The notes under the pieces are model-generated. The model searched no databases. It was not told where the DNA came from and saw only the letters and a program-made list of their open reading frames with translations. DNA of 32,356 nucleotides from Pseudomonadota bacterium (GTDB lineage: Bacteria; Myxococcota_A; Polyangia; Polyangiales; JAKSBK01), in contig JAKSBK010000275.1 of assembly GCA_022361155.1 (NCBI GenBank), positions 1-32,356 of the forward strand, in the 5' to 3' direction. The position numbers and the translations under genes were made by a program. This document shows positions 9,483-15,132 of the stretch, piece after piece; within the stretch, counting starts at the first letter, position 1, and the number at the start of each line of letters is the position of its first letter.

Positions 9483-10256
9483 GTGACACCACGAGTACCG
9501 CGACAACCGCCAGCCGCGCTGCCGGTGGCGAGCATCCAGGCACGCTCCGAGTCGCGCGCGCTGGGTCACGGGCTTGCGGTCCGCTCGATGTTCGATCGCA
9601 TCGCCGCAACGTACGATCTGCTCAATCGCTTGCTCTCGTTCGGCCTCGACCGCAGCTGGCGCAATCGCGCCTTGGCCGCTTTGGGTGCGCGGCTCGACGC
9701 GGGGGCGCCGCCCGGCCCCGTGCTGGACTTGTGTGCGGGCACGCTGGACCTATCCGTCTTGACGCTGCGCCGCCTGCCGGGGCGTGCCGTGGTGGCCACG
9801 GACTTTGCACGGGACATGTTGGTTCGAGGCCGCGCAAAGCTCCGGGACCGAGGCCATATCGCCATCTCGGACGCTCAGAAGCTGCCTTTTCGAGAGCGCA
9901 GCTTCGCAGGGGCAATCTGTGGCTTTGGTATGCGCAACCTCGCTCAGCCGACGCTGGGTCTGGCGGAAGTACATCGCGTGCTCAAGCCGAAGGGTGCCCT
10001 CGTTGTCCTCGACTTCTTCCGCCCCACGCGCGCCACCACCCGGGCGTTTCACGCCCTGTACGGTCAGGGCGTACTGCCGGCCGTGGGCGCGCTGGTTTCG
10101 GGCGACCGCCATGCCTACGGCTATCTGGCTCGGTCCATGCGGGGCTTCGTCACGCGCAGCGAATTCGCTCAAGCCATGCGGGCTGCCGGCTTCCGCGATG
10201 TCTGCGAAACCGACCTGACCTTCGGTGTGGCTTCTTTGGTGGGAGGCCTCAAGTGA
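9483..10256 (+). CDS. menG: Demethylmenaquinone methyltransferase (MenG/UbiE family)
   Basis: 257-aa class I SAM-dependent methyltransferase of the UbiE/MenG family, predicted to add the final methyl group of menaquinone. Family marks are MFDRIAATYDLLNRLLSFGLDRSWR, the SAM motif at residues 80-90 and the UbiE signature segments CGFGMRNL and EVHRVLKPKGALVVLDFF. Motif I reads DLCAGTLDLS, where most members have a second glycine (GTGD); Leu replaces Gly88. The start is a GTG (9483) with GAGAGG close by; the next Met is already inside the domain at residue 36. The stop overlaps the ubiX GTG as GTGA, so the two genes are probably translationally coupled. Placement next to mqn genes supports a menaquinone rather than ubiquinone role. 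Confidence 0.92.
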   Translation: MTPRVPRQPPAALPVASIQARSESRALGHGLAVRSMFDRIAATYDLLNRLLSFGLDRSWRNRALAALGARLDAGAPPGPVLDLCAGTLDLSVLTLRRLPGRAVVATDFARDMLVRGRAKLRDRGHIAISDAQKLPFRERSFAGAICGFGMRNLAQPTLGLAEVHRVLKPKGALVVLDFFRPTRATTRAFHALYGQGVLPAVGALVSGDRHAYGYLARSMRGFVTRSEFAQAMRAAGFRDVCETDLTFGVASLVGGLK

Positions 10257-10840
10257 GACTCGTGGTGGGCATCAGCGGCGCCTCGGGCGCACCGTACGCC
10301 AAGCGGATGCTGCAGCGGCTGGCAGAGCAGCGCTCGTCGCACGAGGTGCAGGTGCTTCTATCGAGAACCGCCGAGCAGGTCTGGGCGCACGAGTGCGACG
10401 GTCACCCCCGAGAGCTCGGCTGGCCGACTTTCGCAGGACGAGACTACGACGCTGCCTGCGCGAGCGGGTCCGCCGGGTTCGAGGCGATGGTGGTGATTCC
10501 GGCCTCGATGTCGTGCGTGGCCCGTGTAGCGCACGGCATCAGCGACGACCTGCTCACGCGCGCCGCGGATGTGGTGCTCAAGGAGCGCCGCAAGCTCATC
10601 GTCGTGCCGCGCGAGGCCCCGTACTCGGCGCTGCACATGGAGAACATGCTGGCTCTGACACGGCTCGGCGTGCTGGTGATCCCTGCCTCGCCCGCGTTCT
10701 ACGCCCATCCCACGACCATCCGAGATCTGCTCGATACGGTGATCGATCGAGTCTTCGTGCACCTCGGGCTCTCGCACAGCCAGAAGCGATGGGGTTACGA
10801 GGTGCTTAGCCGCCACAAGACGACCCACGGCAATGCGTGA
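10253..10840 (+). CDS. ubiX: Flavin prenyltransferase UbiX
   Basis: 195 aa. UbiX joins dimethylallyl phosphate to FMN to make prenylated FMN, the cofactor of UbiD-type decarboxylases. The N-terminal GISGASGAPYAKRML is the flavin-binding motif, followed by VVIPASMSCVARVAHGISDDLLTRAADV, then LIVVPREAPYSALHMENMLAL and FYAHPTTIRDLLDTVIDRVFVHLGL, all typical. The GTG start at 10253 overlaps the menG stop and has GGGAGG upstream. In futalosine-type menaquinone synthesis a UbiD-like decarboxylase acts late, so this UbiX most likely feeds that step; that partner gene is not in the window. A 359-bp gap separates it from the next gene. Confidence 0.95.
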   Translation: MRLVVGISGASGAPYAKRMLQRLAEQRSSHEVQVLLSRTAEQVWAHECDGHPRELGWPTFAGRDYDAACASGSAGFEAMVVIPASMSCVARVAHGISDDLLTRAADVVLKERRKLIVVPREAPYSALHMENMLALTRLGVLVIPASPAFYAHPTTIRDLLDTVIDRVFVHLGLSHSQKRWGYEVLSRHKTTHGNA

Positions 10841-11199
10841 CGCGCTCGACCTTGCCAACCGCCTCTGTCTGGGCCCCGCCAGCCGCCTCTGGGCCCTGCC
10901 AGCCGCCTGTGGACCTCGCGGACCGCGCCCGTTCGCCGGTCCGGGACGCCAGCTTCCAATTCTCGGTAACCAGAGCAGGCCCGCCGGTCTCATGAGCCCG
11001 ATGCGATGGACCACGCCTTTTGGACCCGCGGAACAATCACTCATCCATTTCGCCGGTTGTGGCCACCGCTGGCTATGTTGCTCCTCCTCGAAGTATCCCC
11101 AATACTCCTCGTCGCGCCTCGCCGGCGGTGCCCAGTCCTCGCCGAAACACACGAGTTGTTCTTCCGCGGGCCCTTAGGATCCTGCTAGAGGAAAGCCGC
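10841..11199. other. Intergenic region between ubiX and the MqnE-like gene
   Basis: 359 bases. The first part holds a degenerate 20-bp repeat (listed separately). The remainder shows no strong plus-strand gene. On the minus strand a frame from ATG 11152 begins with unusually protein-like, acidic and aromatic residues (RRDEEYWGYFEEEQ) but soon becomes Arg/Pro-rich and runs into antisense ubiX, so it is not called. AGAGGA at 11187-11192 is the ribosome binding site of the next gene. Confidence 0.45.
10854..10917. repeat. Degenerate about 20-bp tandem repeat after ubiX
   Basis: Related units beginning GCCAACCGCCTCTG (10854), GCCAGCCGCCTCTGGGCCCT (10878) and GCCAGCCGCCTGTGGACCTC (10898) follow each other at spacings of 24 and 20 bases. 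The copies carry a few changes each. The array begins 14 bases after the ubiX stop and is clearly less uniform than the 18-bp arrays elsewhere in the window, which suggests an older, decayed array. Confidence 0.7.
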
Positions 11200-11730
11200 A
11201 TGGAACCGTTGCTCGAGCGTGCAATCCAGGAAGCCGACCTCGCGGATATCGCCTGTCGCATCCTACAAGGCGAGCATCTTCGCGGCGACGATCTCGCGCG
11301 TCTGCGCCGCAGCGACGTGCTGCTTGCTGCAGCCCTGGCAGACGCTTTCAGGGCCAGGTACCGGGGCGGCACGGTTCTTCTGCTGCGTGGCGAACCGTCG
11401 AGCTGCGCGCTGGACGCCCACACCGTCGAAGTGGATCTCGATCCCGTGCGTGGGATCACTGGACAGGAGGCCCTCGTGGAGGTCTCCATGGCACGGCTCA
11501 GCGTACCGGCCAAGCGAGGTATCGCGGTGTGCTGGAATGCGCTGGGAGTCGAGTTGGCCCAAACCGCGCTGCTCTTTGGCGCAGACGTGCTGTGGGGCGG
11601 AGTCGGCAGGCCCGGCGGCCTTCCGCTGGTGGGACAGGGCAGCCAGGCGGAGCTGGAGGGGCTCGTCGAACGCGCGGGCCGCAGCCCACGCTGGCACAGC
11701 GCACCTTGCGGGCCGGAGGAGCGACTGTGA
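11200..11730 (+). CDS. MqnE-like protein lacking the radical SAM barrel
   Basis: 176 aa with no CxxxCxxC motif. Residues 17-56 align with residues 8-48 of MqnE encoded downstream, sharing the pattern IAxR(I/V)xxGExL..DD....L...DVL....LA...R.R..G with one gap. Residues 119-133 (LAQTALLFGADVLWG) match the MqnE C-terminal AQVALRFGADDLDG at 10 of 14 positions, and the stretch before it keeps the spaced Ile, Trp and Leu. The central barrel of roughly 200 residues is replaced by about 40. It therefore looks like an internally shortened MqnE/MqnC-type paralogue. AGAGGA precedes the ATG at 11200 and GC-rich third positions match the cluster, so it is probably expressed. It cannot do radical SAM chemistry; a structural or partner role is speculation. 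Confidence 0.85.
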   Translation: MEPLLERAIQEADLADIACRILQGEHLRGDDLARLRRSDVLLAAALADAFRARYRGGTVLLLRGEPSSCALDAHTVEVDLDPVRGITGQEALVEVSMARLSVPAKRGIAVCWNALGVELAQTALLFGADVLWGGVGRPGGLPLVGQGSQAELEGLVERAGRSPRWHSAPCGPEERL

Positions 11731-11888
11731 GCTCGACCACGCCAGCAACCGCCTTGTTGCAACCAACCGCCTTGTTGCAACCAACCGCCTTGTTGCAGCC
11801 AACCGCCTTGTTGCAGCCAACCGCCTTGTTGCAACCAACCGCAGGGCCGAGCCCTACCGTTCCGGTTCGAAGCGAGGTGGTGAAATGA
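11727..11888 (+). CDS. Possible 53-aa repeat peptide (ALLQPT x5) between MqnE-like gene and mqnE
   Basis: A GTG at 11727 overlaps the upstream stop (GTGA), has GGAGGAG at 11714-11720 six bases before it, and reads to a TGA at 11886-11888 that overlaps the mqnE start (ATGA). The product would be SSTTPAT, five copies of a six-residue unit (ALLQPT), then AGPSPTVPVRSEVVK. The double four-base overlap and strong ribosome binding site favour translation. Against this, the 18-bp repeat is open in all six frames, so the length of the frame proves nothing, and the peptide has no known counterpart. It may be a coupling ORF that lets ribosomes cross the array, or chance. Confidence 0.35.
   Translation: MSSTTPATALLQPTALLQPTALLQPTALLQPTALLQPTAGPSPTVPVRSEVVK
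11746..11842. repeat. 18-bp tandem repeat array inside the menaquinone cluster
   Basis: Five full copies of CAACCGCCTTGTTGCAAC, the third and fourth with one A-to-G change near the end, start at 11746, 11764, 11782, 11800 and 11818, followed by seven bases of a sixth. The array occupies most of the 154-bp junction between the MqnE-like gene and mqnE. Each unit holds a local GTTGCAAC-type inverted symmetry and no stop codon in any frame. Changes in copy number would keep all reading frames in phase. Confidence 0.95.
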
Positions 11889-13048
11889 GAGGGCGCATCG
11901 ACGGGATTGCCGCGCGGGTGCGCAGAGGCGAACGGCTGTGCTTTGACGACGCAATGGCGCTCTTTTTGGAACCCGACGTGCTCGCCGTGGGGTCCCTGGC
12001 AAACGAAATGCGGGAGCGGCTGCATGGGGATCGCACCTATTTCAACGTGAACATGCGCTTCGAGGCCACCAATGTGTGCGAGGCTTCCTGCCGCTTCTGC
12101 GCGTTTGCCAAGCTCGAAGAAGGGGCTGCGGGCGCCCATACCACGACCCTCGCACAAGCGCGGGAGGCTCTCGAGGCTCACCCCGACCCGGGCCTGACCG
12201 AGCTGCACATGGTCAACGGCTTACACCCCGGTTTGCCGTTCGAGTGGTACGAAGACCTGCTTCGGGGTTTCAAGCGCGTGCGTCCGTCGATCCACCTGAA
12301 ATGCTTCACCGCGGTCGAGATCCACTACTTCGCGCAGAAGTTCCACATGACCTACAGCGAGGTGCTGAAACGCCTGCGCGACGCCGGCTTGGGCTCGCTG
12401 CCCGGTGGCGGGGCCGAGATCTTCCACCCCGACGTGCGCCAGCGCATCGCCCGAGACAAAGCCGACGCCGGCCAGTACCTGGCCGTACATGACACGGCCC
12501 ACCAACTGGGCATCGCCAGCAACTGCACGATGCTCTATGGACACGTCGAGACCTTCGAGCACCGAGTCGACCATCTGCTGCGCCTGCGCGAGCAGCAGGA
12601 TCGCTCCGGCGGATTCCAGTGTTTCGTTCCACTTGCTTTCCACAATGAAAACAACAGCTTGAAGCGTCTGCCAGAGCCTACCGCGATCGACGATCTGCGC
12701 ACGATGGCGGTCAGCCGCCTGCTGCTCGACAACATCCCTCACATCAAGGCGTATTGGGTCTCGTTGACGGTGCCCACAGCGCAGGTGGCACTCCGCTTCG
12801 GGGCAGACGATCTGGACGGCACGATCGTTCACGAAACCATCTACCATGCCGCCGGAAGCACCGCGCCCATGGCCCTCACGCGCGACGAGCTCATACGACT
12901 GATTCGCGAGGCGGGACGCGTGCCAATCGAGCGCGGCACACTGTACGACGTGATCGAGGAGCTGTCACCCAAGCCACCCGAAGCCGCCCGCAAGGTCAGA
13001 GAACGGCACCTCCCGAGCCGAGCCTTGCGGCTTGCCGACAGGGCTTGA
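11885..13048 (+). CDS. mqnE: Aminofutalosine synthase MqnE (radical SAM)
   Basis: 387-aa radical SAM enzyme that joins SAM-derived adenosine to 3-(1-carboxyvinyloxy)benzoate to give aminofutalosine, the second step of the futalosine menaquinone route. The cluster motif is CEASCRFC at residues 65-72. Family segments include TELHMVNGLHPGLPFEWYED, LPGGGAEIFHPDVR, ASNCTMLYGHVE, FVPLAFHNENN and AQVALRFGADDLDGTIVHE. The last of these and KFHMTYSEVLKRLRDAG distinguish it from MqnC. The ATG at 11885 follows GAGGTGG and is the first Met before the conserved N-terminus; the longer upstream frame only translates the 18-bp array. It is followed by the mqnA-mqnC gene after 14 bases, indicating one transcript. 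Confidence 0.95.
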   Translation: MRGRIDGIAARVRRGERLCFDDAMALFLEPDVLAVGSLANEMRERLHGDRTYFNVNMRFEATNVCEASCRFCAFAKLEEGAAGAHTTTLAQAREALEAHPDPGLTELHMVNGLHPGLPFEWYEDLLRGFKRVRPSIHLKCFTAVEIHYFAQKFHMTYSEVLKRLRDAGLGSLPGGGAEIFHPDVRQRIARDKADAGQYLAVHDTAHQLGIASNCTMLYGHVETFEHRVDHLLRLREQQDRSGGFQCFVPLAFHNENNSLKRLPEPTAIDDLRTMAVSRLLLDNIPHIKAYWVSLTVPTAQVALRFGADDLDGTIVHETIYHAAGSTAPMALTRDELIRLIREAGRVPIERGTLYDVIEELSPKPPEAARKVRERHLPSRALRLADRA

Positions 13049-13062
13049 TCGAGCGAAGGCAC

Positions 13063-15132
13063 ATGAACCACAAGCCAGAGAAGTCGAGCACGCCACCCTT
13101 GCAAACCCGCGAGCCGGCGCCACGCAAGAAGCTGGTGGCGAATCGTTACGGTAGCGCGCCCAAAGCGGCCGCGCCTGAACAGCTCCGGCTCGTGGGCGTG
13201 AGCTACCTCAACGCTCAGCCGGTCCTACACGGGCTGCTGCAGGGGCTCGGCGCAGGTCGCATATGCTTGCGACTCGCCACACCGTCGGAGCTGAGTCGCA
13301 AGCTCCTCGAAGATGAAGCGGACGCGGCTCTGGCCCCCACGGCCACGTTGGCCAACCACGGAGCGCTCGAGCTCGTTCCAGGCATCGGGATCGGCTGCGA
13401 CGGTGCCGTGGGCTCGGTGCTCGTGCTCGGGGAGCGCCCCCTCGAGGAGCTCGACACGCTGCTGCTCGATTCCTCCAGCCGCACCAGCGTAACCCTGGCT
13501 CGCCTCGTGGCCCGGCGGCTCAGGCGCGGCGGTGAGCCCAGGTGCTGGATTCATGCCCCCCAGGACATCCCGGAGCGTATCGGTGGCCGCACCGGCGGGC
13601 TGCTGATCGGAGATGCGGCGCTGGCTCAGCGGCAGCGCTTTCCCTACCAACTCGACCTGGGCGAAGCCTGGACAAAGTGGACCGGTTTGCCCTTCGTCTT
13701 TGCAGCTTGGGCGGCGCGCCCCGGCCTCCTGCAGCGTGGCGATGTGCTGCTTCTCGAAGCCTCCCTCGCTGCGGGCCTGAATGCAAGAGGCTCGATTGCA
13801 GAAGCCTGGGCTCGGGAACACGGTGGCGACGCGGGTGGTTACCTGCGCTACTTGACCGAAGGCGTGCGTTACGAGCTCGACGATTCCGCACTCGCCGGAG
13901 CCCGCGAGTTCCTCGAACGCGCGGCCGAGGCAGGCTTGCTTCCCCCGTGTGAGCTCACGTTCGTTGGCAAACGGAAGCAAGCCACCGGAGGACAGCGTCG
14001 CGGAAACGGTCTGTCGCAACCGAACCATCGAGAGGCACGGACGCGCGCAGGCGACACCCGTGCATCGCTCGATGGTCTGCTCGAACGGGGCGCTCGCGGG
14101 GGGCGCCTGTCCTTCGAAGACGCAATGGCCCTGGGACGCGACGCCACTACCCACGAGCTGGGGTGGGCCGCGGATCGGCGGCGCCGACAGCTGCATCCGG
14201 ACAACGTGGTCACCTACATCGTCGACCGCAACATCAACTACACCAACGTGTGTACGACCTCCTGCCGCTTCTGCGCGTTCTATCGCCCCGTCAACCACCG
14301 CGAGGGCTATGTCTTGTCGCGTGACGAGCTTGCCAGCAAGATTCGCGAAACCGTGGATGCCGGCGGAGTTCAGATTCTGTTGCAGGGAGGGCTCAACCCC
14401 GAGCTGCATCTCGAATGGTACGAGGACCTGTTTCGCTGGATGAAGCGGAAGTTTCCGATCGCCTTGCACGCACTGAGCCCCGAGGAGATTCTGCATCTGG
14501 CGCGCCTCGAGGATCTGCCCGTTGAGGAGGTGCTCAAGCGCCTGCGCGCGGCTGGCATGGATTCCCTGCCCGGCGGTGGCGCCGAAGTGCTTACGGACCG
14601 CGTCCGCCGCAAGATCGCGGCGGCGAAGTGCACCAGCCTCGAGTGGCTCGAAGTCATGCGCAGCGCGCACCACCTCGGCATGCGAAGCACGGCTACCATG
14701 ATGTTCGGCACTGCGGACACACTGGCGGACCGCGTACTGCATCTTCTGAAGATCCGCCAACTGCAGGACGAAACCGAGGGATTCACCGCGTTCATCTGCT
14801 GGGACTACCAGCACGAGCAAGGCACGCGCGCCGTCGCGGGCGAAACGGGCACGGTGCTCTACTTGCGGACGCAGGCTCTCGCCCGCCTCGTACTGGACAA
14901 CGTCAGCAATATCCAATCCTCCTGGGTCACGCAGGGTCCTGGCATAGGCCAGCTAGCGCTGCGCTTCGGCGCCAACGATATGGGAAGCGTCATGTTCGAA
15001 GAGAACGTGGTTTCCTCCGCAGGAACCACGTTCGCCATGGACGCGCAGCAAATCGAGCGTCACGCCCGCGCTGCCGGGTTCAAGGTGGCCAGACGCAATA
15101 TGCGCTACGAACGCTTGGCCGAGCCCTGCTAA
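13063..15132 (+). CDS. mqnA-mqnC: Fused chorismate dehydratase and dehypoxanthine futalosine cyclase (MqnA-MqnC)
   Basis: One uninterrupted 689-aa frame carries two enzymes. Residues about 39-303 are MqnA (chorismate dehydratase): GVSYLNAQPVLHGL, DAALAPTATLANHG, LDSSSRTSVTLARL, FVFAAWAARPG. Residues about 334-689 are MqnC (cyclises dehypoxanthine futalosine): radical SAM motif CTTSCRFC at 397-404, then LLQGGLNPELHLEWYEDLF, LPGGGAEVLTDRVR, RSTATMMFGT and QLALRFGANDMGSVMFEENVVSSAG. A polar linker of about 30 residues joins them. The first 38 residues are Pro/Lys-rich and probably disordered. GAAGG lies just before the ATG. MqnA and MqnC catalyse non-consecutive steps, so channelling is not obvious. 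Both halves look intact. Confidence 0.93.
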   Translation: MNHKPEKSSTPPLQTREPAPRKKLVANRYGSAPKAAAPEQLRLVGVSYLNAQPVLHGLLQGLGAGRICLRLATPSELSRKLLEDEADAALAPTATLANHGALELVPGIGIGCDGAVGSVLVLGERPLEELDTLLLDSSSRTSVTLARLVARRLRRGGEPRCWIHAPQDIPERIGGRTGGLLIGDAALAQRQRFPYQLDLGEAWTKWTGLPFVFAAWAARPGLLQRGDVLLLEASLAAGLNARGSIAEAWAREHGGDAGGYLRYLTEGVRYELDDSALAGAREFLERAAEAGLLPPCELTFVGKRKQATGGQRRGNGLSQPNHREARTRAGDTRASLDGLLERGARGGRLSFEDAMALGRDATTHELGWAADRRRRQLHPDNVVTYIVDRNINYTNVCTTSCRFCAFYRPVNHREGYVLSRDELASKIRETVDAGGVQILLQGGLNPELHLEWYEDLFRWMKRKFPIALHALSPEEILHLARLEDLPVEEVLKRLRAAGMDSLPGGGAEVLTDRVRRKIAAAKCTSLEWLEVMRSAHHLGMRSTATMMFGTADTLADRVLHLLKIRQLQDETEGFTAFICWDYQHEQGTRAVAGETGTVLYLRTQALARLVLDNVSNIQSSWVTQGPGIGQLALRFGANDMGSVMFEENVVSSAGTTFAMDAQQIERHARAAGFKVARRNMRYERLAEPC

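Follow-up and report, generated by a model that had tools for sequence, protein, structure and literature searches.

In the window, the whole 32,356-nucleotide stretch of DNA analysed here, a ubiE/menG-type methyltransferase gene (9483..10256, +; TIGR01934) is followed by what we take, from similarity recognised in its translation and from matches to relatives, to be a gene for a ubiX-like flavin prenyltransferase (10253..10840, +), the start of which was inferred from a GTGA overlap with ubiE. About 360 bp, which may hold a promoter, separate ubiX from the next gene (10841-11199), and in several relatives the two are close or overlapping. This next gene, hereafter the partner gene (11200..11730, +), runs from an ATG at 11200 to a TGA at 11728-11730, and encodes a 176-aa protein that open reading frame analysis, BLASTP, hhalign and structural modelling identify as MqnE-derived and lacking CX3CX2C. 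As a first-pass annotation of the locus had noted, it has its own likely ribosome binding site in the sequence (AGAGGA, 11187..11192, +), about 8 nt 5' of the ATG, and shares the codon bias of neighbouring genes; the match in codon usage holds in this frame only. Downstream lies an intact mqnE (11885..13048, +), encoding aminodeoxyfutalosine synthase, an iron-sulfur enzyme of menaquinone (vitamin K2) synthesis; the product carries CX3CX2C as CEASCRFC and scores 490 bits against TIGR03700, over the cut-off. The final gene considered here is an mqnA-mqnC fusion (13063..15132, +; Pfam), a single ORF of 689 aa, although MqnA and MqnC act at non-consecutive steps of the pathway. The fusion is one in-frame ORF in 26/26 Polyangia operons checked (the window and L016, L018-L027, L029, L031-L033, L139-L147 and L150), whereas mqnA and mqnC are separate in Acidobacteriota and the other loci checked.

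In the window, 154 nt and a tandem repeat (11746..11842, +; 18-bp unit x 5.4 with 97% matches, by repeat search) separate the partner gene from mqnE, an arrangement unlike that of most relatives, in which the two genes overlap. A possible bridging ORF of 53 codons (VSSTTPATALLQPTALLQ...; 11727..11888, +), evident as a reading frame, spans this interval, its GTG at 11727 overlapping the partner stop by 4 nt and its TGA at 11888 overlapping the mqnE ATG by 4 nt; it may be due to chance. In this frame the 18-bp repeat encodes LLQPTA repeats.

Pairwise similarity between the partner and both ends of the window MqnE is weak, with BLASTP aligning residues 17-56 to MqnE 8-48 (E 7e-4) and 65-163 to MqnE 264-347 (E 0.001). 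Comparison of profiles built from 18 partner relatives and 112 MqnE sequences (hhalign) makes the match decisive, at E 5.6e-14 for residues ~82-164 against MqnE 260-348, and E 2.8e-6 for the N-terminal part. The two-ended resemblance first proposed is therefore confirmed, except that the C-terminal match, initially placed at residues 105-133, is longer, since the profile comparison spans ~82-164. The partner thus comprises an N-terminal MqnE-like module of helices and the first barrel strand (residues ~11-63, 11230..11388, +; hhalign, model and conserved columns), and a C-terminal module containing the last barrel strand and a CofH_C-like end (residues ~82-164, 11443..11691, +; hhalign, and TIGR03700 at E 3.5e-5). 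In other genomes, a profile of the small family also matches both ends within one and the same MqnE ORF, in order and with the middle skipped, for example at 5.5e-13 and 3.5e-9 in G092. Between the modules, some 205 central MqnE residues, CX3CX2C included, are replaced by about 18. Loss of the iron-sulfur motif had been recognised at the outset and extends to all three groups compared, as none of their 49 proteins contains CX3CX2C. The same annotation described the radical SAM barrel as deleted, which holds for its middle but not for its ends, as the beta-1 and beta-8 regions are still present and, by prediction, fold.

Standard family models do not claim the partner. It reaches only 22.9 bits against TIGR03700 (E 3.5e-5, residues 84-136; cut-off 434.55 bits) and only 12 bits against PF19288, the CofH/MqnC C-terminal region (gathering score 27 bits), none of the Polyangia proteins is covered at cut-off by a Pfam or NCBIfam model, and querying the PDB with its sequence gave no match even at E 10. 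The partner is a homologue of MqnE that lies outside the MqnE enzyme family, as a search for the defining motif showed it to be absent. Profile and fold searches, run as a refutation test for membership of an unrelated family, lead to MqnE.

The AlphaFold2 model of the partner (18 sequences) is confident, with pLDDT 88 and pTM 0.84, and its four best PDB matches in Foldseek, all at probability 1.00 and E 7e-4 to 3e-3, are MqnE structures (6xig/6xi9); weaker matches include ThiH, BioB, HydE and PylB. As TM-scores to MqnE are low (0.41-0.42) and the rmsd is high, the match does not fix the relative placing of the two modules. Residues invariant in the partner and largely kept in MqnE are D39, A47, R51, G56, L92, R99, Q121, G127, A128 and G160, while those of MqnE that are lost comprise Cys65/69/72, N283, H286, K288, Y290, E317 and A323-G324. 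The retained residues are largely scaffold residues common to both proteins, the motifs of the cluster and of the C-terminal active-site region having gone. Catalytic residues lost, a fold kept (by prediction) and selection maintained are the marks of a pseudoenzyme, and the partner bears all three.

Full-length MqnE was detected over the curated cut-off in 56 of 193 sampled Polyangia genomes, and in 54 of these the gene directly 5' of mqnE, in the same orientation, is the partner gene (53 by profile, and G492 on closer reading). The occurrence of homologues beside mqn genes in relatives, a check named beforehand, was thereby borne out. In a search of 57 genomes from the same taxonomic order, relatives of the partner occupy the same place, ubiE-ubiX-partner-mqnE and then mqnA-mqnC, at 25-46% identity over the alignment. 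Sister families encode longer versions at this position (196-262 aa, plus one of 167 aa). In Nannocystis, the partner gene stays with mqnE although mqnA-mqnC lies ~0.5 Mb away. No partner without mqnE was found among the sampled Polyangia genomes: of three matches in genomes lacking a full-length MqnE match, two adjoin split mqnE pieces and one is at a contig end. The partner is absent too from three genomes of this taxonomic order that lack the pathway (G001, G002 and G005). It was not found between ubiX and mqnE in G009 and G567, where ubiX is followed by mqnE, and therefore is not strictly required; these two loci (L150 and L219, respectively) are candidate natural losses. All Polyangia forms make up one supported group in the tree (98/99), and since this group spans several families of the class, the partner is evidently old and has been kept. 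Most loci in one broader list of relatives proved to be simply MqnE C-termini.

The partner ORF is intact in all relatives read, and its dN/dS (Nei-Gojobori) is 0.16-0.40 in 11 pairs, well below one, compared with 0.06-0.14 for mqnE in the nine pairs in which both genes were measured; its ratio is thus roughly 2 to 6 times that of mqnE, consistent with a protein that is constrained, but more loosely than the enzyme. Together with its retention in nearly all MqnE-bearing Polyangia genomes sampled, this upholds the early suggestion that the gene persists next to mqnE under selection. Of 20 operons, 12 have a 4-nt overlap between the partner stop and the likely mqnE start, and three more an 8-nt overlap (15/20 in total), although single cases may be wrong, as mqnE starts were picked by codon and position. 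Overlaps of 4 or 8 nt between stop and start are the usual sign of coupled translation.

Cluster-less relatives also occur in Acidobacteriota, where 12 of 149 sampled genomes encode a ~295-aa MqnE-like protein that lacks the cluster motif but keeps most of the barrel (loci include L040, L034 and L187-L197). Its gene is directly upstream of unfused mqnA-mqnC in all cases read, with mqnE elsewhere, and true MqnE is encoded elsewhere in 5/5 such genomes tested. This form aligns with MqnE over its full length (hhalign, E 1.1e-40), its model (pLDDT 92.9) matches MqnE in Foldseek at TM 0.80, and two members pass PF19288 (30.4 and 33.6 bits). Conserved polar residues are T54, E77, R79, Y214, D216, Q234, W237 and K243. 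The free tree separates the Polyangia and Acidobacteriota groups, whereas an AU test, on only 96 columns, does not reject a single clade (p 0.405). At E 1e-46, no full-barrel cluster-less form was found in 247 Thermodesulfobacteriota and 237 Myxococcota genomes, a result that bears on the full-barrel type only and does not establish its absence. A second cluster-less family in Acidobacteriota is MqnC-like (~305-320 aa, 33-39% identical to MqnC, without CX3CX2C; L182:4710-5624, L183:4740-5699 (-), L184:4363-5319 (-), L185:3948-4895 and L186:1652-2605 (-)); in the tree, four of them fall next to MqnC, and no other mqn genes were found within the 8-10 kb read around these loci.

On the evidence of homology, motif loss, conservation, synteny, purifying selection, stop-start overlap and a predicted fold, a helper subunit is the most likely identity of the partner, ahead of an enzyme or a decaying duplicate. 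Adjacency to mqnE, gene overlap, loss of catalytic motifs with retention of the scaffold, and linkage to mqnE in Nannocystis argue for a structural subunit of MqnE. In this scenario, an ancient copy of mqnE would have become the gene for a non-catalytic subunit: once the [4Fe-4S] motif and most of the barrel had gone, a compact remnant would have been left, in which the N-terminal helices of MqnE are combined with its first and last barrel strands and its C-terminal module. The remnant would be translated together with MqnE and most likely bind it as a pseudoenzyme subunit, presumably stabilising or activating MqnE, or holding it in a menaquinone enzyme assembly. That the partner is a non-catalytic pseudoenzyme subunit both made and bound with MqnE is, in our estimation, evenly balanced. 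The original proposal of a catalytically dead partner of MqnE or MqnC thus stands as regards descent from MqnE, inactivity judged by motif and retention beside mqnE, with binding to MqnE the best inference. Counting against an MqnE subunit are the two genomes without a partner, the association of the Acidobacteriota form with mqnA-mqnC and not mqnE, the faster evolution of the partner relative to mqnE, and the spacer and repeat in the window. More broadly, and at slightly less than even confidence, we propose a class-wide family of radical-SAM-derived pseudoenzyme subunits that are co-translated partners of MqnE and whose barrel has been progressively reduced to a seam, consisting of the first and last strands and the end modules. 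Cluster-less MqnE-like proteins of this kind may have had two origins, one in Polyangia and one in Acidobacteriota.

The role of the partner could extend beyond MqnE alone, to that of a scaffold which docks MqnA-MqnC to MqnE or UbiX in a menaquinone enzyme assembly. We consider this unlikely, yet it is kept alive by the linkage of the Acidobacteriota gene to mqnA-mqnC, directly 5' of the unfused pair and apart from mqnE, and by the MqnA-MqnC fusion in every Polyangia operon checked, which points to an organised assembly; MqnC is, moreover, itself a homologue of MqnE. However, the Nannocystis partner stays with mqnE and not with mqnA-mqnC, and G009 keeps the fusion without a partner. The partner might instead regulate MqnE negatively, by competing for its self-association or by limiting its activity: a dead paralogue may be a repressor just as it may be an activator, and coupled translation would fix the ratio of the two proteins. 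Such a regulator is improbable, as genes that nearly always occur together and often overlap suggest a constitutive subunit more than a switch, and no regulatory domain was found in the partner with Pfam or NCBIfam. It is quite improbable, too, that the partner binds a ligand or performs non-radical catalysis on a futalosine intermediate. The conserved polar residues of the full-barrel Acidobacteriota form could line a pocket, but the middle of the barrel is gone in Polyangia, where the remaining invariant residues are mostly MqnE scaffold, and every pathway step tested has a known enzyme family. In the genomes tested, the pathway appears complete without the partner, with MqnE, MqnC, two MqnA/MqnD-family copies and PF01048 nucleosidases; as these known enzymes are present, the partner need not supply a missing step, and its candidacy as a replacement enzyme was rejected for the steps tested. 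A degraded, non-functional mqnE duplicate, an option raised in the first-pass annotation, is suggested by loss of the catalytic motif and about half of the protein and by evolution faster than that of mqnE, but is extremely improbable given the open frames, low dN/dS, well-folded model and old, supported group spanning several families.

The partner brings to the futalosine menaquinone route an uncharacterised component that is near-universal in a whole bacterial class, and the partner series is an unusual natural example of a radical SAM barrel being dismantled while a folded remnant remains under selection. If the partner binds MqnE, it may offer a way to stabilise and study an oxygen-sensitive enzyme, and would serve as a test case of a pseudoenzyme partner beyond the examples already known. 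We found no description of it in literature searches on MqnE, cluster-less paralogues and MqnA-MqnC fusions, which covered few subscription papers.

Among known systems, the partner most resembles MqnE itself (TIGR03700; 6xi9/6xig), in its N-terminal helices and first strand, CofH_C-like C-terminal module, operon position and best PDB fold match, but differs in having no CX3CX2C, no conserved EExxxxxxAG motif and ~205 fewer central residues. The ~295-aa Acidobacteriota form is likewise an MqnE homologue without a cluster motif, beside mqn genes and with a true MqnE elsewhere in the genomes tested, but it retains most of the barrel and is linked to mqnA-mqnC. The radical SAM heterodimer Dph1-Dph2 pairs homologous subunits, the cluster of one being described as regulatory and not catalytic, and mutating the motif in either of them reduces the levels of the two subunits alike (PMC11048331). 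Unlike the partner, however, Dph2 keeps its Fe-S cluster and full length, and the pair, an established heterodimer, is a non-canonical radical SAM system of another pathway. Inactive methyltransferase paralogues that activate a relative include DNMT3L, METTL14 and T. brucei PRMT1-PRO (PMC10908127). These belong to other enzyme superfamilies and are not homologous to the partner; the likeness is that of a works-like model only, in which a dead paralogue binds, and activates or stabilises, a live enzyme.
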